Positions 10,217-51,233 of a stretch of 52,910 nt of DNA are shown in pieces. The notes under the pieces were generated by a model. That model saw only the letters and a program-made list of their open reading frames with translations. It did no database searches and was not told the DNA's origin. The first letter of the stretch is position 1, and the number at the start of each line of letters is the position of its first letter. The DNA is from a virus. Both the position numbers and the translations under genes were made by a program. The stretch covers positions 1 through 52,910 of IMG/VR virus record IMGVR_UViG_3300024319_000017; one strand, 5' to 3'.

Positions 10217-12700
10217 TTAATAATACATTAAACCTAATATCTGATTCAATGGTGCAAATGTGCCTGTTAATTTGTAGGTATTACCTTTATATACAAATAC
10301 AATACCCTCACTTGGAACTAATTTTTGCTTACCACCTGCGGCTAGTAATCGTTCTAATTCTAATTTTAATTTTTCTATTTTACGTACATCACCACTCTTT
10401 TTGATATCTTTTACAGTCTGGTCTAATCGTTTTTTCATAGCTCGTAGTGCAGTATCACTATTTACAGTTAAAACCGAACTCATTATCGATAATACATCAG
10501 CACCAACCCCTAAGAATATATCTTCAAACTTTCTTAAATTAGATTTTGATAATTTCTTTTGGTCTTTCTTATCAGTTTTTTTAGCCCAAACTAATACATT
10601 CGTATCTGTTATGTTTCGTTTATCCAATCTAAAAGATTTATCCATAAACGCCCACCTCTTAACTAATCCCATTTTAGTTTTATTATCTAATGTAGATGGT
10701 GAATTTTCATCAACCCACACTTCCCACCAAGCTTGATGATAATCAGCAACACCATCACTATCAGTTAACCCATACTCTTTTTGTAATTTATCAATCATTG
10801 ATAGATATTTAGATTGTTTAGTTGATAGCTGGTCTGATTTAGGTAATTGTGTTACGGGCGGCCCTTGTATTGTGTAATTTTTCTGAATGTTTTTATTTAT
10901 TTGCTTAATCATACCGGCTAGCATTCTAGCAGCACTTTGATTTTCACCAATTGCCTTACCATCCACATCATACTGCATTGTACCATGAAATATAAGTAGC
11001 GGTTGTCCGTATGGTATTACATTTACGGATGTTGGATAAATTACCTCTAAATTCATAAACGATGAGCCTTGCTGAAACACTTTATCTCTTTGTGATTTAC
11101 TTAATGATTTGATAGCATTACTCAAATCAACCATAGCAAAATTATATGCATCTGTTAACCCACCCCTACCTTGAAACTTTGAAGCTATACCACTTATATC
11201 CAACGCACCCTCACCACTATTTTTTAGATGTGATTTATTCCTAGCAGCAATCAAACCCATATCATCACGCCAACTTATAGCTAATGCTTGACCATCAGTT
11301 TTTTCTCTTGTTAGTTCTAAGTTACCGGTTAGAGCACCCCTAACTATATTTTTCAAATCACTAAAGGTTAAATTCATTTCAATATCAAATGGATGATTCA
11401 TATGCCCATATGCTCCACCTTCTGTAAGTAATGATTCGTTTACGGGTGTTCCACCCAAAAATTCAACAAGTTTATATCCGACTTGAGTAGCAACATTATT
11501 AATATGATTTTTCCAAGTTTGATAATCAGGTGAATCTTTTATTGATTTATATGATTTAGCATTAACACCACTTACACCAGATGGAAAAAATGATACAGGA
11601 TAAGCATCATCTATTGAACGATTATCATCGGCATATATATCATCACCATTTGGATTTAATATGTAATCTATAACTTGAAATCCAAGTCGAAATGCAATTT
11701 TATCATTAATAGCCTTATATGATTTTGAATCTCCAAAGAAAACTCCAGGACCATCATCTACCAATGATTTACCTAAAGCTCCATTTGTTGATGCTTCTTT
11801 AATCGTTACAAAATTTTCCGATTCTGGTATTTCATCATATACTTTATATACTGATTTTATTATAGCATGTAATCCTTCAGTTTCATCATCTATTTCAGAT
11901 GGATACATATTATCTGCTGTTGGAAAGTGTAATTGTGTATATTTTAGTTTTTCAAACCACGGCTCACCTCTACCTTTAGCACTATTTTTACCGATAACCC
12001 TAACATCATTAGGTGGTAAATATCCTTCTTCAGGCTCACCGGGTTCTACATTCGATTCTGATATTAGTTTGTTTATATCAAACGTACTTAGAAACGATTC
12101 TAAAGTAGATTCAAGTTTATACAATTTACCACTTATTAGGTTGAAAATTTTAGGATTAAACTTACCGTAAATACGTTTGAATTCAGATTTACGTTTGGAT
12201 TCACTACCACTTGATAATGATTTTCTAACTTCAGTACCACTAATTGTGCTTAGAGCTGGTGCTACATAAACATACCCCTTTTGTTTATATCCCATTTGGA
12301 TTTTATCAGGATGGTATGGGTCGAAGTACTTCCCTTTTAATCTATACCTATCCTTTTCACCAACCACCGGTATAAACGCTGTGGTATTCGAATCGAAATT
12401 ACCAATGATTTCTTTAGGTGCATATGGATTTCTAATCTGAACTATTTTGGATGATGGAATACCAAACATTTTCATCATTATTTGTTTTTTTTCAACAAAC
12501 TTAAATGGTGATTTTAAAGTATCTGTTTTGTTTGATGTTCCAATGTAAACATTATCTTTACCAAACTTATCTACTAAGTGTTTGTAAGTAGCGTAATGTC
12601 CTGAATGAAATGGTTGAAATCTACCACTATACACTATAACTTTATTTTCTATATTTTCGGTTAATATGTTCTTAACCCATTCTTTAATTAATTTTCCCAT
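10217..12700 (-). CDS. Fusion of HxGH nucleotidyltransferase and KxDG ligase-like domain
   Basis: An 827-residue protein. Residues 20-200 form a cytidylyltransferase-like domain: SGRFQPFHSGH (HxGH at 32-35) and ISGTEVRK at 153-160, the two signatures of NMN/pantetheine/FAD-type adenylyl- or cytidylyltransferases. After an unassigned middle (about 220-430) comes a region with the order of motifs of covalent nucleotidyltransferases (DNA/RNA ligases): EKTDG with K467, NLEVIYP at 550-556, SEGIVFVY near 797-804 and YKLTG at 809-813, with a long helical insert between. This C-terminal part resembles a phage family usually labelled as unknown (DUF6267). ISES, VNESL and LTE strings flank the domains. 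I start at MGKLIKEW; the longer ORF would run into the upstream gene. Confidence 0.78.
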   Translation of the reverse strand: MGKLIKEWVKNILTENIENKVIVYSGRFQPFHSGHYATYKHLVDKFGKDNVYIGTSNKTDTLKSPFKFVEKKQIMMKMFGIPSSKIVQIRNPYAPKEIIGNFDSNTTAFIPVVGEKDRYRLKGKYFDPYHPDKIQMGYKQKGYVYVAPALSTISGTEVRKSLSSGSESKRKSEFKRIYGKFNPKIFNLISGKLYKLESTLESFLSTFDINKLISESNVEPGEPEEGYLPPNDVRVIGKNSAKGRGEPWFEKLKYTQLHFPTADNMYPSEIDDETEGLHAIIKSVYKVYDEIPESENFVTIKEASTNGALGKSLVDDGPGVFFGDSKSYKAINDKIAFRLGFQVIDYILNPNGDDIYADDNRSIDDAYPVSFFPSGVSGVNAKSYKSIKDSPDYQTWKNHINNVATQVGYKLVEFLGGTPVNESLLTEGGAYGHMNHPFDIEMNLTFSDLKNIVRGALTGNLELTREKTDGQALAISWRDDMGLIAARNKSHLKNSGEGALDISGIASKFQGRGGLTDAYNFAMVDLSNAIKSLSKSQRDKVFQQGSSFMNLEVIYPTSVNVIPYGQPLLIFHGTMQYDVDGKAIGENQSAARMLAGMIKQINKNIQKNYTIQGPPVTQLPKSDQLSTKQSKYLSMIDKLQKEYGLTDSDGVADYHQAWWEVWVDENSPSTLDNKTKMGLVKRWAFMDKSFRLDKRNITDTNVLVWAKKTDKKDQKKLSKSNLRKFEDIFLGVGADVLSIMSSVLTVNSDTALRAMKKRLDQTVKDIKKSGDVRKIEKLKLELERLLAAGGKQKLVPSEGIVFVYKGNTYKLTGTFAPLNQILGLMYY

Positions 12701-12731
12701 AATAATAAATACTATTTTAAAAAGTTTACGT

Positions 12732-15062
12732 TTAACTTGGTGCAGTTGGTAGCTCTGGTGAGTCAGAAACAGCCCCACTCGATGCATTAGCTGAAAACTG
12801 TCGTGTTGCGAATATATTTATGTTTTTAATTCTAGTATTAGCACCTGATGTTCCTGTACTTAAACTGAATATAATTTTAGAGTATTTGTTTAAGCTGCCA
12901 GTTGGTATTTCTTGTATAGCGCCAGCAACAAATCCAGAAGATATTGAATAACTTGATGTTAATGTAGATATAGCAGTACCGGTTGAACTTAACGGGTATG
13001 TTTGTATATTTGAAGTTGATTCGAACGAATCGTAGTAATCGATAGTTGTACTACTACCAGTTAAGGCGTTTGCTATTGATATTATAACATTATGTGAGCT
13101 TAATACCACACCATTAGCCGTACCTTTTGCTTGAAATGATATACCCATATGGGTTTCACCTTCTAAAAATCGGACCGGATATTCAACTACAACTGTGCTT
13201 GGGTTTACATCTGATATATATTCAGTATTATCTTGAACTAACACACGGCCTAAGTTTCTAAAATCAGCTACACCTGCTTGGGTGTTTATAAGTTCATATA
13301 AAGTACCACCATAATTTTGTCTAATTAGTAAGTTAGACCCACTAATACTACCACTTGCATTTAGAACTAAAGCGTTTATACTGCTTGATATTTCAAACTT
13401 AGATTCTATTGATTGTGATGTTATTGTGAATCCACCAATATCACCTGCTGTAGCCGTTACAGTACCATTTAAGGTTACATCACCATTTGGCTGTAGGTGA
13501 AAGTTAGATGAGCTTATTTCTATGTTTCCATCTGAACCACTTATGAATTGTGAACCCGTATTACCTACAAAGAACTTATCGGTTTTTATATCTAATACAC
13601 CACCACCAGCGGTTGTGAATATCATATGCCTATCATCATTATCACCTACCAATTGTAAACCCACCCCACTTAGCGAATCAGAACCTAAAGTAATACTTCC
13701 CGAATACATTATAAACCCACCAGCGCTTAACCCTAAAGATGCACTTGTTTGGCCGAGATAACCAACTGATTGAATTAACCCGCTTGAACGGCCAGACATT
13801 TCCATACCCTTTCCAATTTCATTGGATAGATACATTGAACCAGTTACAAGATTATCATTTCCAGCAAAATAATAATTACCACCTTGAAAAACATATGGTT
13901 CTGATGTAGTTAGAGTTTTGGATATTTCACCACCATAATTTAGGTATTGGAATCTTAGCTTCTTAGCATCTTTTAAGTGTTCTGATGGTATTGGTACTTT
14001 GATAGTGAATGATGTGCTAAATGGAACTTGCACTTCGTGTAATAGCTCATAGTCACCCGGCAACCCATCTGATTTTATTAATACCTTTACCTTCTCCACC
14101 AACCCAACTATTGGGTCTACATTACTAAGTGTAATATTAGCGTATGACCTCTTATTTTCTGTTGCTTGATTTGAGCTAGTTGAAAAGTAATCAACCGATG
14201 TTCTAACTTCATCTACAAAATTAAATGTATGGGTTAAATCAGTTTTATCTTGAAACTCGGTAGTGTATGGTTTATCTAATATAACAGTATTACTATCAAT
14301 TACAGAAACAATTATTGGATTATAGTTAAGTGATATTGGGTTTGGTATATTAGTAGCCGGTGTTGCTTTGTTAAATACAGTTGGTGTATCAAAATCAAGT
14401 GTAGACCCGACCATCTCACCATTAAAAGTGTTGCCAGTAGTACTTGTTTTTTGAGCGATTGGTGTACTTCCTTTATAAATATATCTGACTTTTATTGTAC
14501 CAGAACTTACTTTAGTTAATTCAGTACCGCTAAATGGTAAGTTCTGGTACGATTCTATACTTTCAGATATGGATACTGATGGTAATGATGTTGGGTTAAA
14601 TAAAACGGGCGATAGGTTATTCCTATCCCTATCCACTAAAACAACAACAGACCATCTTACGTTTGGGTTACCTTTGAATCTATCTGGTATAGGATTACCA
14701 TTTAAATCCACTTTAGATTCACCAACAATTGTTATCGTAGCGTTACCATTTGGTGTATTATCATCATCTTTATCATGGTATATCCAAATTGATATAACCC
14801 GACTCTTATCATCTTCTATGTAATCTGGTATTTCAAAATATATAGGATTTCCATTAGAGTCTCTAACATCAATCAATACTTTAGAACCATCAACAAGGTT
14901 TGTTGGATGTGCTTTTATCCTTAAAAGATTCTTCCCTTTCTGTAGTATTTGTGGAACATCGGATACTCTAAAAAAGTTTGGTGATAGCGGTGTACTATCA
15001 TCAATATAAACTTCTATATTTTGTAAATCTTCCCTCTGTTCGTTTTTAAATGTTAATGACAT
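12732..15062 (-). CDS. Tail fibre or appendage structural protein
   Basis: A 776-residue Ser/Thr/Gly-rich, Cys-poor protein. The N-terminal 370 residues look like several beta domains. Residues 390-540 carry repeated short strands (SGSITLGSDS, SGSDGNIEISSS, NGDVTLNGTVTATAG) that lead into GDIGGFTI at 540-547, a motif typical of fibre and tail-tip proteins just before a distal domain. A beta-rich C-terminal domain follows. Probably an adhesin or fibre on the baseplate; the receptor is unknown. Strong AAGGAG ribosome-binding site; an ATATTTATA element 15 bases before the start. It is separated from the other tail genes by the recombination genes. Confidence 0.75.
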   Translation of the reverse strand: MSLTFKNEQREDLQNIEVYIDDSTPLSPNFFRVSDVPQILQKGKNLLRIKAHPTNLVDGSKVLIDVRDSNGNPIYFEIPDYIEDDKSRVISIWIYHDKDDDNTPNGNATITIVGESKVDLNGNPIPDRFKGNPNVRWSVVVLVDRDRNNLSPVLFNPTSLPSVSISESIESYQNLPFSGTELTKVSSGTIKVRYIYKGSTPIAQKTSTTGNTFNGEMVGSTLDFDTPTVFNKATPATNIPNPISLNYNPIIVSVIDSNTVILDKPYTTEFQDKTDLTHTFNFVDEVRTSVDYFSTSSNQATENKRSYANITLSNVDPIVGLVEKVKVLIKSDGLPGDYELLHEVQVPFSTSFTIKVPIPSEHLKDAKKLRFQYLNYGGEISKTLTTSEPYVFQGGNYYFAGNDNLVTGSMYLSNEIGKGMEMSGRSSGLIQSVGYLGQTSASLGLSAGGFIMYSGSITLGSDSLSGVGLQLVGDNDDRHMIFTTAGGGVLDIKTDKFFVGNTGSQFISGSDGNIEISSSNFHLQPNGDVTLNGTVTATAGDIGGFTITSQSIESKFEISSSINALVLNASGSISGSNLLIRQNYGGTLYELINTQAGVADFRNLGRVLVQDNTEYISDVNPSTVVVEYPVRFLEGETHMGISFQAKGTANGVVLSSHNVIISIANALTGSSTTIDYYDSFESTSNIQTYPLSSTGTAISTLTSSYSISSGFVAGAIQEIPTGSLNKYSKIIFSLSTGTSGANTRIKNINIFATRQFSANASSGAVSDSPELPTAPS

Positions 15063-15075
15063 TTATTCTCCTTAA

Positions 15076-18000
15076 TTATAAATATCGTATGGTGGAAAAA
15101 CCATCTATTTTGTTAATATCTATTATCTTATCAACCATATCACGTGTTTTATCAATGTGAGATATTGTAACTATAAAATCAAACTGCGTTTTTAGGTAAT
15201 CAAACAATAAATATAATGAATTGAAGTTACCACTATCCAATGAACCAAACCCCTCATCAATAGCTATAAAATTAGGTCGTGGTAAGTTTGATACATTCGT
15301 TAGTGCTGTTCTAATTGCTACCGATGATATGAACCGTTCCATACCACTTGATAATTCCAATGGCCAATATTTATCATCAGAATATGCTATATATGAATTT
15401 ATATTTTTACCATCGGTGTTTAGTAGTATCTGAAAATCTACTAATGGATTTAATATGTTGTTGATTTCAATTTCTAACTTTGGTAATATGTTGGATATTA
15501 ATTGATATGGTATACCATCTCGCTTTACACATGATAGGTATGATTCATAACCCTCATACTTGTTTTCCATAGTTTCAAGCGTATCAATTGATGCACTTAT
15601 ATTTTCGATTGTATTAGTGGATATACTCACATTACCACTAATATCAACTATGGATTCATTTATTTCACCTATAGCTTCATCCATATCACTTAATGATATC
15701 CTATGTTCATTTATCTTTTCGTTTAATTTTGAATTATATTGAATTAAAACTTTTTTTTCTATCCAATTCTGAATGGATTGATTTGTAGATTCTAGTGAAA
15801 TATTTAGATTTTGTAATTCCAATTTACAAGAATTAGATATTAGTTTCAACCTATCAATTTCATTTTCAAGCTCTAATATCGATACGTTCAACTCCTTTAC
15901 TTCTGTTAGTGTGTCAGTTACATCGTGCTTTTTAACCCCAATAGATGCACTATCGAATTCACCACCAAGTGTAAGTAATTTCATAGATATAAGCCTAATT
16001 TCATTTTCTAAATTTTTAGCTTGCTTTGCAAATGGTGTATTTTTATTAGCTACACAATGGGTGCACCCATCATCGAAAGATAAAGAACCAATACCATCTA
16101 AGTGTTTTTGTTTATGTGACATATCATTTTCCAATTCAGATACTTGCAATTGAATTTTATCTAATAATTTGGAGTAATGTTGATATTTGGTGTAGCTTTC
16201 TTTTAGTGATTCAATGTTAAATTTAGAATATTCCATATTCAAGCAGTTTAAAGTAGTACCTTTTTTTGAAAGTATATCAATGTACTCCCCATACTCAATC
16301 TGCTTTTTTTGTATTTCATTTTCAAGATTATCTCTATCTGTAGTTAATTCTTCTATATCGATATTAGTTATATCAATTGACTTTATTTGAGATAACAATG
16401 TCTCTATTTTATTAGATAAGTCGTTTCTATTTAGTTTTAATTTATTTAATTTTAATTTAGTGTCTGATAATATAGCATTCTGCTTTTTAAATTCAATTTT
16501 TGATTGTGATAGTTTTTCCGGTAAGTTTCTATTTTTATAATCCTTAACCAAAGCACTTAGTTCTTTTATATCATCGCTAGCTATTTGATACAACTTTTCA
16601 AATACGTTAATATTTAAAAACTGAGCTAATAGTTCCTTTCTTTCTTTTTGTGATTTATTAATGAACCCACCGCTATTGTTTTGGTTTGACATGGCTGTTA
16701 ATACAAATTCATCATAAGAACCAACGTACTGTCTTATTATTGAATTAGTTTCCCTACGTTCTTCACCATTTAATGAATGTGTTTCACCATCTATAATACA
16801 GTAAAACTCGACATTAACTTTTACAGTACCCCGTTTGGGTGATTTTTTACCAATTCGTTCAATGTAATAATCTATACCATTTATTTCAAAAACATACTTA
16901 CAACTGAATTGTGATTTTTGGTTATTTAATACATCAATAGCCTTTGATGTTCTTGAACATTTATCAAATATACAAAATGATAAAGCATCCCATAATGATG
17001 ATTTTCCACTTGCATTTGGCTCAAATATACCATAAGTACCATTTAAATTTTGAAAATCAATGATATTATTTTCACCATATGAAAACATATTTGAAAATTC
17101 AAATCGTTTAGGTTTCCAAATTATATTTTTAAGCTTGTTATTATTAGTGATTCTGTTGTTAATATCAGTATTTATTGATGTTACTACATCAATCTGCGTA
17201 TCACTTAGGATAAGTTTATCGTTCAAAAATTCTTTAATAAGTTTATTTTGAAATCCAACATCATCCAAGTTATGAATTGATAAGCTTGATTTTTTATTGG
17301 TGCTTTCATTTACATTAAGTACTTTTTGTATGGATAATTCCTGTACCTTGCAATTTGTCTTTATATTGGTAACTATTTTATCCAACTGTGATTGTGTTGT
17401 GTTGTTAGCTCTGATTCGTATTCTCGGCTTAGTTGGTATCTCAGGATTACCAATTAATTTGCCATTTTGTACATCTAAAGTAACATATCCATAATCATTA
17501 TGTATTGGTACGAATTCAGATTTTTTAGTATCAACATCCCATACCAAAATACCATGTTCGTTATATTTAGCTTCTGAGTGGTTCTGCATAATAGTTGAAC
17601 CACAATATTTAACAGTCCCACTATCATTTAAAGATTGATTTGGAACGTGTATATCACCTAATAGTACTAAATCGTAACCATTAAATGAGTCAATATTTAC
17701 ATTCTTATTTTCTATCTGAAATCCATGTTCTGTTTTTACGTTATTAACAGGCCCATGATATAATGCTATTTTATAATCACCACTAACATCGTTTGATTTT
17801 ATTATATTTTTCGAATCACCAAATACAGATGTATGTGAAAATGAAATACCACCCATTTGCCAAACACCACTATCTTTTAAGTAATGTAAGTTTTTATGGT
17901 TTATAGCATTTACAATCGGTGTAAGCGCATCCATTCTAGATGGGTTATTCAGATTAGCATCGTGGTTTCCCGGTATCAATATGGTTGGTAATAAATCAGA

Positions 18001-18246
18001 TAGTCTTTTTAGAAATGTTTGAGTCATTTCTATAACTTCAGGTGTCATATCGGTTTTAGCATGGACTATATCACCGGCTAATACAATAACAGATTCTTTG
18101 GTTTTTGTATCTGAAATATATTTATATAGTCTATTAAAAACTTCTCTATATTCTTTGTGTCGTTTAAGGTTTCTTATATGTACATCAGCAATATGGTAAA
18201 TTTTACCTATATTACCCTTATAATCAATCTTTATTGGTTCTAGCAT
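15076..18246 (-). CDS. gp47-gp46: Fused recombination nuclease gp47-gp46 (Mre11/SbcD-Rad50/SbcC in one chain)
   Basis: DNA double-strand-end processing nuclease needed for recombination-dependent replication; T4 makes the two halves as separate proteins. Here 1056 residues carry both. Residues 1-270 are the phosphoesterase: DVH (21-23), AGDIVH (57-62), GNHD (94-97), YHG with H164, GDIH (197-200; Asp where many Mre11 proteins have His) and YCGSTIMQNHSE. From about 378 is the ABC ATPase: Walker A EPNASGKSS (409-417), coiled-coil arms, the zinc-hook CTHC at 728-731, coiled coil again, signature LSSGMERF (965-972), Walker B IAIDEGF (D997, E998), D-loop GSLD and switch His in TISH (H1030). The ATG overlaps the primase stop by 7 bases. 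No internal stop or frameshift is seen. Confidence 0.93.
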   Translation of the reverse strand: MLEPIKIDYKGNIGKIYHIADVHIRNLKRHKEYREVFNRLYKYISDTKTKESVIVLAGDIVHAKTDMTPEVIEMTQTFLKRLSDLLPTILIPGNHDANLNNPSRMDALTPIVNAINHKNLHYLKDSGVWQMGGISFSHTSVFGDSKNIIKSNDVSGDYKIALYHGPVNNVKTEHGFQIENKNVNIDSFNGYDLVLLGDIHVPNQSLNDSGTVKYCGSTIMQNHSEAKYNEHGILVWDVDTKKSEFVPIHNDYGYVTLDVQNGKLIGNPEIPTKPRIRIRANNTTQSQLDKIVTNIKTNCKVQELSIQKVLNVNESTNKKSSLSIHNLDDVGFQNKLIKEFLNDKLILSDTQIDVVTSINTDINNRITNNNKLKNIIWKPKRFEFSNMFSYGENNIIDFQNLNGTYGIFEPNASGKSSLWDALSFCIFDKCSRTSKAIDVLNNQKSQFSCKYVFEINGIDYYIERIGKKSPKRGTVKVNVEFYCIIDGETHSLNGEERRETNSIIRQYVGSYDEFVLTAMSNQNNSGGFINKSQKERKELLAQFLNINVFEKLYQIASDDIKELSALVKDYKNRNLPEKLSQSKIEFKKQNAILSDTKLKLNKLKLNRNDLSNKIETLLSQIKSIDITNIDIEELTTDRDNLENEIQKKQIEYGEYIDILSKKGTTLNCLNMEYSKFNIESLKESYTKYQHYSKLLDKIQLQVSELENDMSHKQKHLDGIGSLSFDDGCTHCVANKNTPFAKQAKNLENEIRLISMKLLTLGGEFDSASIGVKKHDVTDTLTEVKELNVSILELENEIDRLKLISNSCKLELQNLNISLESTNQSIQNWIEKKVLIQYNSKLNEKINEHRISLSDMDEAIGEINESIVDISGNVSISTNTIENISASIDTLETMENKYEGYESYLSCVKRDGIPYQLISNILPKLEIEINNILNPLVDFQILLNTDGKNINSYIAYSDDKYWPLELSSGMERFISSVAIRTALTNVSNLPRPNFIAIDEGFGSLDSGNFNSLYLLFDYLKTQFDFIVTISHIDKTRDMVDKIIDINKIDGFSTIRYL
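15077..15085 (-). promoter_or_regulatory. ATATTTATA element upstream of the fibre gene
   Basis: Coding-sense GATATTTATA just before TTAAGGAGAATAAATG. It lies in the 13-base gap between the nuclease-fusion and fibre genes and runs into the nuclease stop region, so it could start a late fibre transcript. Confidence 0.35.
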
Positions 18247-19175
18247 ACATTCATTAGTTTGTATTCCATTAACTTCTTAAAAGTTAATTTTTTAGTATTT
18301 TTCATTAATTCGTAAAAACTATTAAATCCCATTTCAGATGGGTCTGAATTTCCAAGTTCTATAAGATGTACATCTATACCAGTGTTCATCAATTCTTCTG
18401 CAAATCTTACTGAATTTTTTAGTGCATCCGAATCTAATGCAAGATATATTTTACTTACACCATTTTTTATGATACTCTTTTTTATATTTGATTGTGGTGA
18501 TTTACCAAATAATGGTATTGAATTATTCCTTATTGCTATAGCATCAAATACACCTTCACATATCACAATAGGAAAATCCCAATTAACAAACAATTCAAAC
18601 CCAATTACATCTTTTGATACTTGTGGGTTTTTGTGTTTAAAGTTACTTTCATAGAAACTTCTACCTACAAAGTAATTTAATCTACCATTTGAATCATATG
18701 ATGGTACAATTATCTTATTTTTATATTGACCACTATCACAATATCCGATTGAATATTTTATTATTTCACTTGGAGATACACCCCTACCAATCAGATAATT
18801 TAATGCGTGTTTTCTTATTATAGAGTTTGATGGTTTCCAAAGTGGGATGTATTCAGATGGTAGTTGAACACTTTCAGTAACTTCATCTTTTTTATTAGTA
18901 TGGTATCTATACTTTCGCTTGAGTATAGAATTGTGCTCAGACCATACATTCTTACTAACCTTTAGTTTTTTGAATAGGGATTTTACAGTTTTTCCCTTTT
19001 CATCTGAAATCCAACAATGCCACGGGTTTAATCCATCCGAATTTAATCGTATGTTTATTTCTAATTTAGGTTTGTAATGTTGTTCAAACGGCGAATAGAA
19101 TGCATAGTTATCACCTGAGGTTTTTTTAGATTTACCTAAAACTGATTCCAATAAATTTAATAATCGTTCTTCCAT
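18240..19175 (-). CDS. DNA primase with TOPRIM domain and degenerate zinc ribbon
   Basis: Makes RNA primers for the lagging strand. The 311-residue protein has the bacterial/phage primase core: a helical region with YLIGRGVSPSEIIKYSIGY (127-145), then TOPRIM with CEGVFDAIAI (E207, D211) and ALDSD (D248, D250). The N-terminal 70 residues have the frame of the zinc ribbon of related primases (FYSPFEQHYKPKLE..., PWHCWISDEKG), but of the four expected Cys positions only C54 is present; the others are S28, E31 and S57. It therefore probably binds no zinc in the usual way. The gene is coupled to the gp47-gp46 fusion downstream, forming a replication/recombination operon. Confidence 0.85.
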   Translation of the reverse strand: MEERLLNLLESVLGKSKKTSGDNYAFYSPFEQHYKPKLEINIRLNSDGLNPWHCWISDEKGKTVKSLFKKLKVSKNVWSEHNSILKRKYRYHTNKKDEVTESVQLPSEYIPLWKPSNSIIRKHALNYLIGRGVSPSEIIKYSIGYCDSGQYKNKIIVPSYDSNGRLNYFVGRSFYESNFKHKNPQVSKDVIGFELFVNWDFPIVICEGVFDAIAIRNNSIPLFGKSPQSNIKKSIIKNGVSKIYLALDSDALKNSVRFAEELMNTGIDVHLIELGNSDPSEMGFNSFYELMKNTKKLTFKKLMEYKLMNVC

Positions 19176-19183
19176 ATTGTTAT

Positions 19184-19214
19184 AATATACGAAAAAAGAT
19201 TGAACTATCCAAAA
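19184..19214 (-). promoter_or_regulatory. Possible promoter before the primase gene
   Basis: The 29-base gap before the primase start contains, in coding sense, CGTATATTATAAC preceded by TTTTG about 20 bases upstream, inside the end of the endonuclease gene. This fits a Bacteroidetes-type TTTG...TATA-rich arrangement and resembles the CGTATAATATAG core of the repeated cassettes at 41-49 kb. Confidence 0.35.
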
Positions 19215-19636
19215 AAAGTTTGAAATTGTTTTGGTGGTTCATCAATCCATTCTTGTGGTATCTCCTTCTTTGCCCACTTGAATCCGTTTTTGGTGCACCA
19301 CTGCGCATATGTAGTTTTAGAACCTTTATATATCTTACCATTTGGCGATTGTAATACGAACCGTAAGTCCATATCAGGATTTTGCTCTTTTATGATTAAG
19401 TGTTTTTTTCTATCACCAGGTAGAAACCACCCTTTAGATTCTATGTATATACCATTTGGTAATCTAAAATCAGGTTTATACGTATGTTCTGTAGCAGGTA
19501 TTACGTACTTTATCTCATTCTGTTCATACTCACCATCAATTCCTTTGGACTTTAGTTGCTCATCTATCTTAGTTTCAAAACCACTTTTATGCCCCTTTGA
19601 ACGTTGAATATGTGCCCAATTTGATTTTTTTATCAT
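19205..19636 (-). CDS. T7-type endonuclease I (Holliday-junction resolvase)
   Basis: Resolves branched DNA, probably Holliday junctions and replication intermediates before packaging. The 143-residue protein matches the T7 gp3 family: FETKI with E21, YKPDF with D56, YIESKG with E66 and K68, then KKHLIIKEQNPDMDLRFVL. These four residues have the same spacing as the T7 catalytic set (E20, D55, E65, K67). C-terminal YAQWCTKNGFKWA and EIPQEWI also fit the family. T4 itself uses endonuclease VII (gp49), an unrelated fold, so this is a functional replacement. It overlaps the start of the preceding small gene's stop by 4 bases (ATGA) and precedes the primase. Confidence 0.93.
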   Translation of the reverse strand: MIKKSNWAHIQRSKGHKSGFETKIDEQLKSKGIDGEYEQNEIKYVIPATEHTYKPDFRLPNGIYIESKGWFLPGDRKKHLIIKEQNPDMDLRFVLQSPNGKIYKGSKTTYAQWCTKNGFKWAKKEIPQEWIDEPPKQFQTFFG

Positions 19637-37952: not shown

Positions 37953-38252
37953 TTATTTTTTATTTTTTAATATTGATAATAATTCACTTTCTCTATAAAT
38001 GTGATATGTTTTTCCACCATTCTTATGTTTAAAGCCAGTACCATCTAATAATACAGTATCTCCAACTTTAACACTCATTGGTATTTTATTACCTGTATGT
38101 GTAAATAACCCATCACCAACGGCAATTACCTCACCCATCATTGTTGTTTCTGAACCAGATGGTTTGTAAAGACCACCCTTTGTTTTTTCGTCGTAACGTT
38201 TTACTATTTCAATCACAACTCTATCCCCTAAAGGTTTGTATTCCATTTCCAT
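37953..38252 (-). CDS. groES: GroES-type co-chaperonin
   Basis: Caps GroEL for protein folding; phages need it for capsid protein folding (T4 uses the unrelated-looking gp31). The 99-residue protein is a standard Cpn10: YKPLGDRVVIE at the start, mobile loop TKGGLYKPSGSETTMMGEV, then AVGDGL and KVGDTVLL. It should replace or complement host GroES with the host GroEL. Five bases separate it from HD, and two from ClpP; the three form one unit. A second ATG two codons in is an alternative start. Confidence 0.95.
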   Translation of the reverse strand: MEMEYKPLGDRVVIEIVKRYDEKTKGGLYKPSGSETTMMGEVIAVGDGLFTHTGNKIPMSVKVGDTVLLDGTGFKHKNGGKTYHIYRESELLSILKNKK

Positions 38253-38254
38253 AA

Positions 38255-38881
38255 TTATATTATTTTATCTACGATTCCTAATTCTAAAGCTTGAGTTGAT
38301 GTTAAAAAGTAATCAGTTTGTTGATTATCTGACCACCATTTCTTATCCTTTTTAGTACATTCTTCCATTATACGATTACAATCATCTTCCAATTGTTCTG
38401 CGAATTTAGCATTGGATTTTACATCTGATAACTTACCTGCTGTAAATGATGATAGCTGATGTACCATTATTTTTGAATGTTTAGATACTGCTCGTAATCC
38501 CGTACCTGCTGTTAATAACAAAGCCGCTGCAGACATAGCCATACCCCTACATACTATATTTGTTTTAACACCATCATTATCTAATGTACGAATGTAATCT
38601 ATCAAACCCAATGTTTCAACAACATCACCACCACCAGAATTAAGTAATATGGTTACCGATGTTAAGTTTGGATTAATCTTTCTAAGTAATCTACATTTGG
38701 ATATAACATCAAATAGTAGTCCCGGTTCTATTAAATCATTAATCATAATGATATTATCAGCTACATCAATACCATAATCCAATTCTCTGAATTCTTGAAA
38801 CCACTTACTACGCTCATCTGAATTTGTAGTTGTGTAATTTACATTCATTTCAGATTCATTCCCATCGTTATAAAGACTCAT
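38255..38881 (-). CDS. clpP: ClpP-like serine protease
   Basis: A 208-residue member of the ClpP/crotonase fold: NSGGGDVVETLGLIDYIR, catalytic Ser in RGMAMSAAA (S117), His in IMVHQLSS (H141) and Asp in QQTDYFLTS (D190), followed by LELGIVDKI. The order and spacing match ClpP, although sequence before residue 40 is phage-specific. No Clp ATPase gene is visible in the window, so it may use the host's or act alone, possibly on virion or host proteins. Transcribed with GroES and HD. Confidence 0.93.
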   Translation of the reverse strand: MSLYNDGNESEMNVNYTTTNSDERSKWFQEFRELDYGIDVADNIIMINDLIEPGLLFDVISKCRLLRKINPNLTSVTILLNSGGGDVVETLGLIDYIRTLDNDGVKTNIVCRGMAMSAAALLLTAGTGLRAVSKHSKIMVHQLSSFTAGKLSDVKSNAKFAEQLEDDCNRIMEECTKKDKKWWSDNQQTDYFLTSTQALELGIVDKII

Positions 38882-40099: not shown

Positions 40100-41011
40100 C
40101 TACGGGGTAGTTATATCAACTTCACTCCTGTATTTGATTAAACATAGTTCTTTAGCCTTAGCCTCCAGCATTACATCAACATTATTACCATAAGTATTAA
40201 TATATTCAGATATATAATCTGAATGTGCTTGGGGTTTAATCTTATCATTAGATTCGTGTAATGATTTAGATTCAGAATAATGAACAACAGGTGTTATATC
40301 ACCCCAAGTAGATATCGCAAGTTCTAATGCTTCTTTCTCAGTAAGACCACCCGTATTGAATCTATGATGGTGGTAATCAAATACTATTGGTATACCAATC
40401 CTATTATGTATGTACATTAAATCTTTTACAGAGTACATGGATGCCTTATCATCGTTTTCTACAGTAAGTCGAGTTTTAACTGAGTCCGGCAATCTTTCAA
40501 AGTTTTTACAGAACCTATCCATAGCAGATTTCTTATCACCATACACACCATTACAATGTATATTGATTTTGTTGTAAGGAGTCCTACTCAATCCCATCAT
40601 ATCAAAAACTTCACCATGTACAGATAAATCCGTTATAGTATTGGTAACAACATTATCCTTTGGTGATACCAATACGTTAAATGGGCCTGGATGGCTCGTT
40701 ATTCGTTGATTATACTTTTTTGATAATAACCCAACGCCATTAAGTAAACGTTGTACTTTAGAGTAATCTGGAAGCTCTGATAGTTTATATTCAGATGACC
40801 AAGGAAATAGATTGGATGACATCCTAAAAAAGTGGATATCGTTCTTATAATTCCACTTTATAATCTCTATAAGGTCACGAACATTCTGTAACCCCAGCTC
40901 AGAAGCATAACGAATACCTTTTGATTGAAAGGTTCGTTTTATCATACCACGATTTGTTGTGATACCATCCTTCCGTAAATTCATATTAATACATGCGTAT
41001 CCTAAATTCAT
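40100..41011 (-). CDS. uvsE: UV damage endonuclease (UvdE/UvsE family)
   Basis: Nicks DNA 5' of UV photoproducts. The 303-residue protein is a full-length TIM-barrel member: NLGYACINM at the start, FFRMSSNLFPW, ITSHPGPFNVL, KINIHCNGVYGDK, LTVENDDKASMYSVKDL, GIPIVFDYHHHRFN and MLEAKAKELC carry the His, Glu and Asp metal ligands. T4 uses the different enzyme DenV, so this is an alternative repair route, useful for a phage exposed to sunlight. Three bases separate it from the upstream small gene and both are probably transcribed from the 41.4-kb cassette promoter. Confidence 0.95.
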   Translation of the reverse strand: MNLGYACINMNLRKDGITTNRGMIKRTFQSKGIRYASELGLQNVRDLIEIIKWNYKNDIHFFRMSSNLFPWSSEYKLSELPDYSKVQRLLNGVGLLSKKYNQRITSHPGPFNVLVSPKDNVVTNTITDLSVHGEVFDMMGLSRTPYNKINIHCNGVYGDKKSAMDRFCKNFERLPDSVKTRLTVENDDKASMYSVKDLMYIHNRIGIPIVFDYHHHRFNTGGLTEKEALELAISTWGDITPVVHYSESKSLHESNDKIKPQAHSDYISEYINTYGNNVDVMLEAKAKELCLIKYRSEVDITTP

Positions 41012-41446: not shown

Positions 41447-41635
41447 TTAAGTATATTGTTCACATTCAATATCTGTTATCTCATTTACAAAGTAGTAGTA
41501 AGGTTCTTTTTTGAATACAGTATCAACATCAAGCCATTCTTTCCAAGTTTCTATAATAGGATTATGGTCAATATTAACTTTACGTATAACTGAAAACATT
41601 TTATCAGATACTTTTATAACTTCTTTTCCAAACAT
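41447..41635 (-). CDS. Hypothetical small protein after Hsp20
   Basis: A 62-residue protein starting MFGKEVIKVSD; not recognised. The ATG overlaps the Hsp20 stop (TAATG), so it is translated with Hsp20, and a strong terminator follows six bases after its stop. It has acidic and aromatic residues in its C-terminal half (EPYYYFVNEITDIE). No membrane segment. Confidence 0.62.
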   Translation of the reverse strand: MFGKEVIKVSDKMFSVIRKVNIDHNPIIETWKEWLDVDTVFKKEPYYYFVNEITDIECEQYT

Positions 41636-41988
41636 TACTTAACTTTAATTTCAATATTTTTTTTACGTTTCGCTTCGAACTTGGGTATTTTTAAATCCAA
41701 AACACCATTCGTAACAGATGCGCTAGCTTTAGATAAATCCCAATTACTACCAACTTTATAGGATTTACTTATCTGCCTATCAGTACATTCACCATCAATA
41801 GTAATAACATTATGTTCGGCTGATATATTTAGATTATCCTTAGAGAATCCAGGTACATCTAAAGTTACATTTAAGTTATCATCATCAACCTTATAATTAA
41901 TCGATTTCATACAAGGTAATCCATTACTAAATGATTGTTCAAAAACATCAAAAAGTTCATTGTAAATTCTATTTTTTGTTAAAAACAT
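41635..41988 (-). CDS. hsp20: Small heat-shock protein (Hsp20/alpha-crystallin)
   Basis: ATP-independent holdase chaperone. The 117-residue protein is an alpha-crystallin domain from VDDDNLNVTLDVPGFSKDNLNIS through NVITIDGE and SKSYKVG to the conserved ASVTNGVLDLKIPK, ending KNIEIKVK. The N-terminal arm is short (about 28 residues), as usual for phage versions. With GroES and ClpP it makes three proteostasis genes in 4 kb. Phage Hsp20 genes are known in cyanophages, where they are thought to help structural proteins. Confidence 0.94.
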   Translation of the reverse strand: MFLTKNRIYNELFDVFEQSFSNGLPCMKSINYKVDDDNLNVTLDVPGFSKDNLNISAEHNVITIDGECTDRQISKSYKVGSNWDLSKASASVTNGVLDLKIPKFEAKRKKNIEIKVK

Positions 41989-44848: not shown

Positions 44849-46150
44849 TTATTTAAACGGATTATCTACGTTATCAGTATTAAACAAATTCGTATCACCA
44901 TCTGAAATACCTACAAACTTTTGAACAAATTGTTTGATGTACAATCTTTCTGATTCAACCCCACCACAATCATCAAATAATGGGTAAACTGTAATCTCAG
45001 CGGATTCAGCCAAGTTAAACCCATCATCAATCAAAGAACCAATTTCAACGGCCGTTCTGGTAGAAAGTGAATTAGTAAGCTGTGGTGCTTCCTTTTTAAC
45101 TTCACTACGAGTCATTGTAGTTATTTCAGATATGGATTGTAAAATCTTTTCATCAACATCAGGATACAACATTGTAAGTAGTGAATGTTCTTCTTCAAGA
45201 TTAAGAGTATCCATCTCTATAATTGTGAAACGGTCAATCATAGCCCGGTCCATTTGACGAGTTGAAGTATATTCATTACCAATGTTAGCGGAAGCGATGA
45301 ACGAAACACCATCAGCAACTTTAACCACAGGTGAATTTGCCGCCTCATCTAATCTAAGGTATCGTTGCCCATTATCCAATACGGTCATTAGAATGTTATG
45401 AGCCTCAGGATGTGCTCTGGAGATTTCATCTAATACAATTACAGTATTCGGAGTTTGTATTGCTTTAACAAAAGGTGATGGATTAAACACCGTACCTTTG
45501 GTATTATCAAATTGAGTATTACCAATCAGAGTAGTTCGGGGGTCTTGCGTAGAACCAAGATTGAAGATTTCCATATTATACCCATCAAGTGCGTTAGCGG
45601 CCGCCTTTGCTGCCATAGTTTTCCCACAACCAGCGGGTCCTGTCATCATAATATTTTTACCTCTAAGGATATTACGGATTAAATATTTCCATTTAAGTTC
45701 ACTCATAAATAACATTTTAGGTTTTAAATCCTTAGCTTCAGAGTGAATGAAGTTCAAAATGTTTTCATTAGATGGTGGTTTAACTGATGTATTTTCTACA
45801 GGCGTTTCAGTTATTTCAACCTTAACATCATCAGAAATATAATTACTATTAATACCAAATTCGATATTGTATTGTCCCATTTCAGCAATATTACAACCAA
45901 CCATAGCGAATGAACTGGGAACACCACCGGATTTTCTAGTGAACTTAGCCAATCGTAAAGCACCATTATTAAACGATACCTTAACACACCACTTATTTGG
46001 GTTATTAACTACAGTACCCATACGTTTGTAAGTCCATGTAGACCTATCATTTAGTTCATCTACAAAGTACTTATTACCAACACCATCAACTAAGATGATA
46101 TCTTTATTAGGATTTCTTTCAGCGGAAAAATAAAAAACTTCTTTTTGCAT
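44849..46150 (-). CDS. MoxR/CobS-like AAA+ ATPase
   Basis: A 433-residue protein. The first 120 residues form an unassigned beta domain; the AAA+ domain follows: Walker A GPAGCGKT (171-178), Walker B VIVLDE (D241, E242), sensor 1 in SFIASANIGN, and arginine-finger-like RQMDRAMIDRF. This is the AAA_5 type used by MoxR and CobS, ring ATPases that work with a VWA partner to insert metals or remodel proteins. The VWA partner gene is encoded just upstream (46.6-48.7 kb), with a small gene between. Phage homologues are often labelled cobaltochelatase subunits, but a target in phage is unknown. Driven by cassette copy B. Confidence 0.9.
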   Translation of the reverse strand: MQKEVFYFSAERNPNKDIILVDGVGNKYFVDELNDRSTWTYKRMGTVVNNPNKWCVKVSFNNGALRLAKFTRKSGGVPSSFAMVGCNIAEMGQYNIEFGINSNYISDDVKVEITETPVENTSVKPPSNENILNFIHSEAKDLKPKMLFMSELKWKYLIRNILRGKNIMMTGPAGCGKTMAAKAAANALDGYNMEIFNLGSTQDPRTTLIGNTQFDNTKGTVFNPSPFVKAIQTPNTVIVLDEISRAHPEAHNILMTVLDNGQRYLRLDEAANSPVVKVADGVSFIASANIGNEYTSTRQMDRAMIDRFTIIEMDTLNLEEEHSLLTMLYPDVDEKILQSISEITTMTRSEVKKEAPQLTNSLSTRTAVEIGSLIDDGFNLAESAEITVYPLFDDCGGVESERLYIKQFVQKFVGISDGDTNLFNTDNVDNPFK

Positions 46151-46588: not shown

Positions 46589-48658
46589 TTAATGAAAGAA
46601 TTTATTCAAAGATTTAGCCAACGGTATCAATGATTCAACATTAATTTTTTGTGAATCGTTACCGTACATTTTAACAAAACTATCATAATTCCAAGAATCA
46701 TAACTATCAGATATAAAATAACCTAAAACTTTTATACCATTAGCTTTGATTTTATCAACTTGCGTTTTAGTATGTTTAATAGCGTAATCTCTAACATAAT
46801 ATATATCATTGTTTTGAAATTGTGGTGCTCCATCTGAAAAGTTTATGAAGTACTTTTCTAAATTACCACCGGTATTTATGATATCTTTCATAATAGCTTC
46901 AAAACACAAACCTTCAGGAGTAGTACCCGTACAATCTATATATTTGAATAGTTGTGTAATTTTAGAAAACTTATCTTTTCTACTATCATAAGCCAATATA
47001 ACCAATGGTGTATCATCATTATGATTAGGACAATATGTAGTTCTGTAACTGATAACAACATCTAAATTAGTAGTCATACTTGCCGCCTTAGCAATAGCAA
47101 CAACCGCAGTTTGTGTTTTATCCCATCGAGAACCACTCATAGAACCACTAGCATCAACAGATATATGTATAAGAGATGGTGTTCTTTTATCTATCTCTAT
47201 CTGGTTAAATACATTGTAATTACCAGAACCCAATTCATGCATCAATCGGCCGGATATTCTACCTGATTTCATTCTTGGTGTAACTAAAGAACGTTCTTCA
47301 GAGCGTTTTTTTAATCTTTTACCTAACATAATACCCAATTGCGTTCCTTTAACAATGTTTTCATGATATCTATTAACTCTATCAATTCGCCAGGAATCAA
47401 TATCGAGAGGTAGTAAGGCGCTGCCCAATAATTTGGATTCAATTAACTTTTTTGTAAAGTTATTTACAATTGTTACATTGGTTTTATTACCACTTCTAGC
47501 TTTATTAAGTGAATTTTTATCATGCCCACCACCACCACACATTTTACTATTAACACCACTTTCATCAATAGCTTTTATCTTTTTAGAATCAGATTTAGAT
47601 ATTTTACGTTTTTTGATACTACCATCGATAAAATCTTTTTGCTTTTTAATAGCCTTATCTAATAGTTGTTTCTGTCTATCAGATAAATTACCATTACCAG
47701 CTGTAGTAGTATTACCATTATCAGAACCATCAGAACCATCACCATCAGAACCATCAGAATCACCATCATTTGATTGTTCGGAATCAGAACCATCAGAACC
47801 ATCACCATCAGAACCACCACCACCGGTAGATTGGTCAGAATCATCACCATCATTTGATGAATTGGAACTATCAACTGATATTTGAGATTCAATAACTTTA
47901 AAAACTTCTAAAGATAATTTAATAACATCCCATGTATCTTTCAATCTGGAAATGTTTTTTAAATCTAGCATTTGCCAAATCAATCCTAACTTAGATAACG
48001 CACCCAAATCACGTTTTGGATTTGTTATGTTGATAAGACGAAAAAAGTAAGAATCCCAATCTTCTGTACGATATTCAGAACTCAACAAACCCTTATCAAT
48101 TTGCTTAGCGTTGAAATACTTATCGTACATAGATTGATAATAACCCCTGTAGCCAGGTGACGTAGTGTAAACAAACCAATCAATACGTCTATCTTCAATA
48201 ACATTTACGATATTTTTCAATTTTGGTGATACGTAATTTTCACAAAAATTTGTGATATCATAAGAACCAACATTAACCATATTCTCATGATACTTTTCAT
48301 AAAGTGAATACCAATACGAACCAACAGAACAATCTTCAACATAGTTAGCCCCATTTATGTGGTTTAGTGTTCTAAAATCGGTAAGTTTAATATGCGACCC
48401 TTCGTGAAGAGCCAACCCAACGATTGGGTCAAAATCAGTTTCATCAATTTTAGATGAAATAGTAACAGTTTTACCATCCGTATAACTATCACCTGTAACG
48501 TTAAAATTAACTTTGATTGATTCACCTGTTACGATGTTAACGAAGTTAGATACGGCCCGTTTATATGATGATAAGGCAATATAATCTAACTTAGAATCAC
48601 CATCAATTGGTGAAAAGAAGTCATAATCAATCCAAAATTTACTATTTTTATTATCCAT
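46589..48658 (-). CDS. VWA-domain protein with HExxH motif (CobT/NorD-like)
   Basis: A 689-residue protein. The N-terminal part has LALHEGSHIKL (HEGSH, 85-89) and later NVIEDRRIDWFVY, a pairing seen in CobT/NorD-type VWA proteins and reminiscent of zinc proteases. A low-complexity Gly/Ser/Asp stretch (about 255-330) follows, then a basic linker and a C-terminal VWA domain with a complete metal site: VDASGSMSG, TGTTPEG and NFSDGAP. It probably partners the AAA+ ATPase encoded downstream, as CobT works with CobS. Whether it cleaves protein is unknown. Starts after cassette D. Confidence 0.88.
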   Translation of the reverse strand: MDNKNSKFWIDYDFFSPIDGDSKLDYIALSSYKRAVSNFVNIVTGESIKVNFNVTGDSYTDGKTVTISSKIDETDFDPIVGLALHEGSHIKLTDFRTLNHINGANYVEDCSVGSYWYSLYEKYHENMVNVGSYDITNFCENYVSPKLKNIVNVIEDRRIDWFVYTTSPGYRGYYQSMYDKYFNAKQIDKGLLSSEYRTEDWDSYFFRLINITNPKRDLGALSKLGLIWQMLDLKNISRLKDTWDVIKLSLEVFKVIESQISVDSSNSSNDGDDSDQSTGGGGSDGDGSDGSDSEQSNDGDSDGSDGDGSDGSDNGNTTTAGNGNLSDRQKQLLDKAIKKQKDFIDGSIKKRKISKSDSKKIKAIDESGVNSKMCGGGGHDKNSLNKARSGNKTNVTIVNNFTKKLIESKLLGSALLPLDIDSWRIDRVNRYHENIVKGTQLGIMLGKRLKKRSEERSLVTPRMKSGRISGRLMHELGSGNYNVFNQIEIDKRTPSLIHISVDASGSMSGSRWDKTQTAVVAIAKAASMTTNLDVVISYRTTYCPNHNDDTPLVILAYDSRKDKFSKITQLFKYIDCTGTTPEGLCFEAIMKDIINTGGNLEKYFINFSDGAPQFQNNDIYYVRDYAIKHTKTQVDKIKANGIKVLGYFISDSYDSWNYDSFVKMYGNDSQKINVESLIPLAKSLNKFFH
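47717..47863 (-). repeat. Low-complexity repeat coding for Gly-Ser-Asp
   Basis: Imperfect short tandem repeat inside the VWA gene built of GGTTCTGATGGTGATGG-type units; a block of about 30 bases occurs twice (near 47723 and 47787). It encodes a Gly/Ser/Asp-rich flexible linker and may vary in length between isolates. Confidence 0.8.
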
Positions 48659-50390: not shown

Positions 50391-51233
50391 TTATACAATT
50401 TCACTTAGTTCACTTTCTTTTTCTTTTTTTAATAATTCCCAAGCTCTACCCAATCTAGTCAACCCAATACCACCTCCGAATCTTGGAAAGAACTCATAAG
50501 ATAGGAACTCGTTTAACTCTGATTCAACACGCTCTTTACCAAATAGTTCAAATAACTTCTCACAATATGTACCATCCATAATAGAGTAAAAGAAATGCCG
50601 CATTTCATCAGAATCACAACTACGCTCAGCCGTACCAAATGTCTCTTGGCCGAACAGTATGATATCACATTTATTAAACTTACCATCACCAATATATTTC
50701 ATATTCCAAAATGGTGATGTTCTAATTGGGAATGTTTCAAGTGATATCGAATGACCAAGCTCTTTCCACATCTTAGATTCGTGCTCATCTTCGAGTATTT
50801 CTACATCACCATATTCTTTACAAGTCGTATCATAATCAAGTTGTACAGGTGTATCAAATCCTAAATACTCTGCTAATTCAATGTTCAACTTCTTTAGAGC
50901 TTCGAAATCACCTTTGGATTCAAATTCAAACATTGGGAAAATCTTTTCATGTCTGCCTGGTATTGGGTCTTTTTCATTTCTGTATGATGTGGATACACAA
51001 AAACACCCATTCCAATCCGGATTTTTAAGCAACTCATATTCCAACCACATCTGACCAGTCTGTGGTAATGGCCATACAACACCATCGTAGGTGAACGTTG
51101 CTACTGAATGTGGGTTTTCACATGCGGCCAATATTGATTTTCTAGATTGTGATGGTACTTCTATAAATCCTTTAGATAAAAAAAAATCTCTTAGTTTTTG
51201 AGTAACCTCGTGATAAGTTTGTGTTTGTTTCAT
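50391..51233 (-). CDS. Class II aminoacyl-tRNA-synthetase-like enzyme (Asn/Asp type, no anticodon domain)
   Basis: A 280-residue catalytic core. LPQTGQMWLEYELL (56-70), motif 2 with STSYRNEKDP and GRHEKIFPMFEFES (R85, E87), ILFGQETFGTAERSCD and motif 3 GGGIGLTRLGRAW (253-265) are the class IIb pattern. The N-terminal anticodon-binding domain of Asp/AsnRS is absent. Such short paralogues include archaeal asparagine synthetase and tRNA- or protein-modifying enzymes, so asparagine synthesis is one plausible role; a direct charging role is unlikely. Next to tRNA genes, which may or may not matter. Good AGGA ribosome-binding site. Confidence 0.85.
   Translation of the reverse strand: MKQTQTYHEVTQKLRDFFLSKGFIEVPSQSRKSILAACENPHSVATFTYDGVVWPLPQTGQMWLEYELLKNPDWNGCFCVSTSYRNEKDPIPGRHEKIFPMFEFESKGDFEALKKLNIELAEYLGFDTPVQLDYDTTCKEYGDVEILEDEHESKMWKELGHSISLETFPIRTSPFWNMKYIGDGKFNKCDIILFGQETFGTAERSCDSDEMRHFFYSIMDGTYCEKLFELFGKERVESELNEFLSYEFFPRFGGGIGLTRLGRAWELLKKEKESELSEIV

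Follow-up and report, generated by a model that had tools for sequence, protein, structure and literature searches.

Fusions of the Mre11 nuclease with the Rad50 ATPase were described by Yoshida, Claverie and Ogata in 2011, who recognized Mimivirus R555 as such a fusion and reported twelve further ones from bacteria, plasmids, eukaryotes and Bacillus phage 0305phi8-36 (PMC3175470). The same study reported the replacement of a His of motif V by Asp (Asp242 in R555), used the T. maritima structure to argue that 9–12 linker residues are sufficient and that the fusion is compatible with that complex, and noted that abundant marine homologues adjoin phage primases and T7-type endonucleases and are most likely phage-borne (PMC3175470). 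A search of the open-access literature found no paper discussing phage fusions later than that of 2011. In T4 the gp46/gp47 pair resects ends for the recombinase (PMC3016280).

The window, i.e., the whole stretch of DNA analysed, is a 52.9-kb genome fragment of an aquatic, T4-sized phage. The fusion encoded in it resembles R555-type fusions in its Mre11-Rad50 N-to-C order, the retained cap and helix-loop-helix, the short linker and the Asp in motif V, and the marine homologues of that type have the same adjacent primase and T7-type endonuclease genes; R555, however, is an amoeba-virus protein of 1351 aa with longer coiled coils, whereas the window protein has 1056 aa and belongs to a tailed phage. 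T4 gp47/gp46 and the cyanophage proteins have the same two domains and share the role in recombination-dependent replication inferred for the fusion, and the T4 genome is similar in size to those of the large fusion relatives, which carry a RecA/UvsX-type recombinase, but these proteins are encoded by two separate genes, have GH(F/Y)H as motif V, and include a shorter gp46 (560 aa in T4). Bacterial SbcCD and archaeal and eukaryotic Mre11-Rad50 likewise comprise nuclease, cap, helix-loop-helix, ABC ATPase, coiled coil and zinc hook, but as separate proteins; in E. coli, motif V of SbcD is GHIH and the SbcC coiled coils are longer. The statement of an earlier note on this DNA that nuclease and ATPase are encoded separately elsewhere is correct for T4, T4-like cyanophages and E. 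coli.

Gene and domain architecture

The fused SbcD/Mre11(gp47)-SbcC/Rad50(gp46) gene lies at positions 15076–18246 on the minus strand as a single uninterrupted frame of 1056 codons with an ATG start, in place of the two separate genes whose products form a complex in T4. Pfam identifies Metallophos at residues 15–202 (E 1.2e-12), AAA_23 at 385–621 (E 3.8e-7) and SMC_N at 577–1046 (E 1.6e-10), and PHROGs assigns the protein to the phage SbcC proteins (phrog_77, E 4e-47). The single open frame and the presence of both Pfam families bear out the proposal that gp47 and gp46 are joined in one 1056-residue polypeptide.

An AlphaFold2 monomer model built from 44 family members has a mean pLDDT of 79 and a pTM of 0.46, the latter leaving the relative placement of domains uncertain. 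The modelled order is nuclease, cap, helix-loop-helix, short linker and lobe I, then a pair of long coiled-coil arms that come together at the CTHC hook, and finally lobe II. The calcineurin-like phosphoesterase (Mre11/SbcD nuclease) domain, with conserved motifs I–V, spans residues 15 to about 251 (17494–18204, minus strand, as are all features below). It is followed by the modelled capping domain (252–309, with strands at 252–281 and a helix at 285–298) and by helices 330–344 and 349–365, which occupy the place of the Rad50-binding helix-loop-helix of Mre11, the whole region covering residues 252–365 (17152–17493). The linker, residues 366–376 (17119–17151), is exactly 11 residues long in all 85 full-length homologues listed, within the range of about 9–12 residues before Rad50 predicted for R555-type fusions (PMC3175470); its sequence varies moderately (mean column identity 0.42) around a mostly conserved N-x-x-W. 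Pfam, motifs, conservation and the model place Rad50/SbcC lobe I at residues 377–546 (16609–17118) and lobe II at 908–1056 (15079–15525), separated by modelled helical coiled-coil arms at about 547–907 (15526–16608) that flank the zinc hook (16054–16065). The earlier note took residues 270–378 for a connector; given the modelled cap and helix-loop-helix, this region consists mainly of functional Mre11 domains, and the model and alignment confine the true linker to 366–376.

In Foldseek searches against BFVD the best matches are full-length fusions from giant viruses, among them Tupanvirus, Harvfovirus and Yasminevirus, the mimivirid proteins matching the model at 16–26% identity, together with the fusions of Tenacibaculum phages pT24 and PTm1; the best matches in the PDB include Mre11-Rad50, SbcCD and Rad50 chains.

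Conserved motifs and the motif-V aspartate

The motifs of a functional Mre11-Rad50 are all present, namely metal-binding motifs I–V, Walker A (EPNASGKSS, residues 409–417), the zinc hook (C728-T-H-C731), the Rad50 signature (SGME, 967–970) and Walker B (D997/E998), the only departure being the Asp that replaces the first His of motif V. The motifs given in the earlier note are all found, but its numbering of GNHD as N95/H96 is wrong and should read N94/H95. Residues D21, D59, H95, H164, D198, H200, K415, C728, C731, S967–E970, D997 and E998 are invariant in the 85 homologues listed, and H23 is conserved apart from a Gln in one of them.

Motif V reads G197-D198-I-H200 (17647–17658), which substantiates the proposed His-to-Asp change, D198 standing at the equivalent of Pfu His206 as in R555-type fusions. 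GD occurs in 22/22 fused or re-split proteins compared and GH in 14 of 15 separate ones, among them those of T4, cyanophages, herelleviruses and E. coli; the exception is the T5-like phage Brizo, whose separate D12 protein carries GDLH. By this sequence comparison, Asp in motif V marks all fused forms tested, versus one of 15 separate proteins, which ties this residue to the fused state. The first His of motif V is a metal ligand in Mre11, and Asp is itself able to bind metal; the substitution might change metal binding and hence nuclease activity. The divergent 1310-aa fusion of Tenacibaculum phage pT24 (L044:5986–9918), annotated merely as metallo-phosphoesterase or DNA repair, has D-x-Q instead of D-x-H in motif I.

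Fused homologues in phage genomes

A close-relative scan of IMG/VR yielded 40 loci and a profile scan 80 (the best 80 of the 482 relatives that the first 600 pattern matches contained), giving, after removal of duplicates, at least 85 distinct full-length fused homologues of 39–100% identity, nearly all on IMG/VR phage contigs. Two of the checks proposed earlier, a search for other fusions in phage databases and inspection of the junction in related phages, thus gave positive results: every one of the 85 is fused in one frame, and the frame runs through the junction in about 100 loci. The closest cultured relative found is Microcystis phage Mel-JY01, whose protein WWT39521.1 (40% identity over 99%) is also a full-length fusion with a primase upstream, annotated merely as 'AAA domain containing protein'; its host is a cyanobacterium. 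One scan of bacterial and archaeal genomes returned only five loci, all in metagenome-assembled genomes, and no plasmid copy was found beyond a partial Ilyobacter SMC-family match. One homologue has a single in-frame stop in the coiled coil (L059:8485–8487, near residue 840) and is otherwise intact, reflecting either a sequencing error or a real truncation.

Because the window protein matches every point of the 2011 report (PMC3175470), it is another member of the known fusion group; on its architecture, linker and Asp it is assigned to the Mimivirus-R555-type class, the trees described below having been built without R555. The novelty implied by the earlier note does not stand, as fusions with the same Asp have been known from a phage and from marine contigs since 2011 (PMC3175470), and knowledge of this kind of protein is not altered by the window fusion. 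Beyond that report, the analysis places the fusion in assembled phage contigs, shows its clade to be large and uniform with a linker of constant length, and reveals that a separate gp46 is lacking and that some of the genes have been re-split; these findings support the 2011 proposal that such fusions are at home in phages and not in giant viruses alone.

Gene neighbourhood

The fusion is apparently part of a cassette. Its start codon overlaps, by 7 nt, the stop of the DNA primase gene directly upstream (18240–19175; phrog_47, E 1e-29), and the third gene encodes a T7-endonuclease-I-like junction endonuclease (19205–19636; phrog_945 endonuclease, E 8.5e-51, with the T7-type reading taken from the sequence). 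Of the 90 loci listed that extend far enough upstream, every one has the primase directly upstream (84 under a strict criterion, the other six with an overlap of a few bases), and 83 have the endonuclease no more than 2.5 kb upstream. Seven contigs of 132–245 kb, perhaps incomplete, have no phrog_77 (SbcC) match other than the fusion, and in Mel-JY01 it is the only credible one, two extra matches there being weak and partial; no credible separate gp46 (phrog_77) gene was detected in these eight large, perhaps incomplete, records, each of which contains one RecA-family (RecA/UvsX-type) gene. This context fits a T4-like scheme of recombination-dependent replication.

Phylogeny and re-split genes

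In trees of the Mre11 half and the Rad50 half the core fused proteins group as a single clade (97/96 and 100/100), with T4 gp47/gp46 and the cyanophage homologues outside it in both. Two very divergent fused proteins also fall outside the core clade, those of a 735-kb huge phage (L043) and of pT24. The trees do not reject a single origin for the fused forms as a whole (AU p 0.37 for Mre11 and 0.17 for Rad50), but with deep branches this long they do not decide the matter.

Two genes that are split by putative homing endonucleases nest inside the fused clade in both half-protein trees, at different places. In a 169-kb IMG/VR contig (L030:8541–9660) the fused gene is interrupted by an endonuclease gene with a weak NUMOD3 match, and in the 484-kb phage LR756508 (L041:6481–7740) by one with a TnsA-like nuclease match; the two endonucleases are unrelated members of different families. 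Both interruptions lie inside the nuclease domain just past GDIH, around residues 200–214, and the upstream pieces end in a similar C-terminal tail, ELEEYLKNGWEI and ELEKYLNSGWKL (ELExYLxxGWx). A group I intron was rejected, there being no Rfam intron match and too little non-coding sequence outside the endonuclease genes, and on these same grounds the insertions are read as free-standing homing-endonuclease genes; a split intein was rejected by eye only, as the flanks lack intein-like ends. Searches for relatives of the two endonucleases gave weak matches apart from the first contig's own locus, and the shared tail was found near none of them. A similar case is the nrdA gene of Aeromonas phage Aeh1, which is split but stays functional (PMC2988022). 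In a metagenome-assembled contig (L125:3–210) the frame before residue 97 looks by eye like an intein C terminus, ...NENLLIRYNGKISISGN followed by CNLNN; such an insertion would sit at the GNHD metal-binding motif, and NCBIfam intein models did not match it.

A wider reading would have one ancient fusion give rise to all viral Mre11-Rad50 fusions, in marine T4-sized phages, huge phages, Tenacibaculum jumbo phages and mimivirids, that fusion being marked by the Asp of motif V, which would confer a different metal chemistry, and some descendants, re-split by homing endonucleases, functioning from two pieces. We regard this as possible but rather doubtful.

Proposed role and alternative explanations

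That the protein is the phage's sole Mre11-Rad50 machine, a single chain assembling as M2R2 and taking the gp46/gp47 role, is the best explanation and a highly probable one, given the frame, domains, invariant residues and conservation of the fusion, and given that the large related records contain a RecA-family gene and the neighbouring primase and endonuclease genes but no credible separate gp46. Two copies would dimerise through ATP-dependent association of the Rad50 heads, through the nuclease domains and through the zinc hooks. The result would be the usual M2R2 assembly, with the helix-loop-helix and the 11-residue linker holding each nuclease in cis on the Rad50 of its own chain. The fusion would bind DNA ends, resect or nick them, and bridge them, resection providing 3′ single strands for a phage RecA/UvsX-type recombinase, and it would thereby fill the gp46/gp47 place in recombination-dependent replication. 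It most likely performs the T4 gp46/gp47 task of ATP-gated resection and bridging of DNA ends.

The canonical Mre11-Rad50 complex is already 1:1 (M2R2). The earlier suggestion that fusion fixes stoichiometry for this reason adds little, and the suggestion that it constrains head dimerisation is weakly supported, as the model has the normal order of nuclease, cap, helix-loop-helix, short linker and Rad50, which is compatible with the T. maritima complex (PMC3175470).

Adjacent genes 47 and 46 might have been joined artificially in assembly or sequencing, through a lost stop codon or a frameshift, since T4, cyanophages and herelleviruses as a rule have separate, closely placed genes and the loss of a stop is easily imagined. 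Nevertheless, the continuous frame and fixed-length linker recur in about 100 loci from many samples and in the isolate Mel-JY01, and among the matches listed no relative of at least 39% identity is split at the nuclease/ATPase junction. The lost stop or frameshift near residues 270–378 named in the earlier note as what would refute the fusion is thereby excluded, an artefact is exceedingly improbable, and the fusion is confirmed as a genuine, strongly conserved design. Post-translational cleavage into gp47 and gp46 halves acting as ordinary separate subunits is another conceivable outcome, because the short and moderately variable linker could serve as a cleavage site; the invariance of its length and the mostly conserved N-x-x-W argue against this, no protease site was identified, and the natural re-splits lie elsewhere, inside the nuclease domain, so that cleavage appears very unlikely.

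A nuclease-dead or altered fusion, acting mainly as an ATPase that bridges or clamps DNA ends, would be in keeping with the replacement of the first motif-V His by Asp in all fused proteins compared and with the additional absence of the motif-I His in pT24. However, the remaining metal ligands are kept across 85 divergent homologues (with the one H23Q), the replacing Asp can also bind metal, GDLH occurs in a separate D12 protein as well, and conservation over long times favours catalysis; we consider this reading improbable. If a large uncultured phage lineage has it as its only enzyme of this type, a single-chain Mre11-Rad50 would lend itself to biochemical and structural work as a convenient model, owing to its fixed 1:1 pairing, modest size and short linker.

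Other genes of the window

Further genes, all on the minus strand, include a UV damage endonuclease UvdE (40100–41011; Pfam E 2e-64), an 856-aa protein (10217–12787) whose N-terminal part is a nucleotidyltransferase (NMN adenylyltransferase-like) and whose large remaining part is unassigned, and an AAA_5/MoxR-like ATPase (44849–46150) adjoining a 689-aa protein (46589–48658) that by eye resembles a partner of the von Willebrand A type (cobaltochelatase-like). A ClpP-like protease gene (Pfam) and genes that by eye are GroES-like and small heat-shock-like lie near one another at 37953–38881 and 41635–41988. A 280-aa protein (50391–51233) comprises only a class II (D/K/N) tRNA-synthetase-like core with no evident anticodon-binding part, and is possibly an asparagine synthetase-like enzyme.
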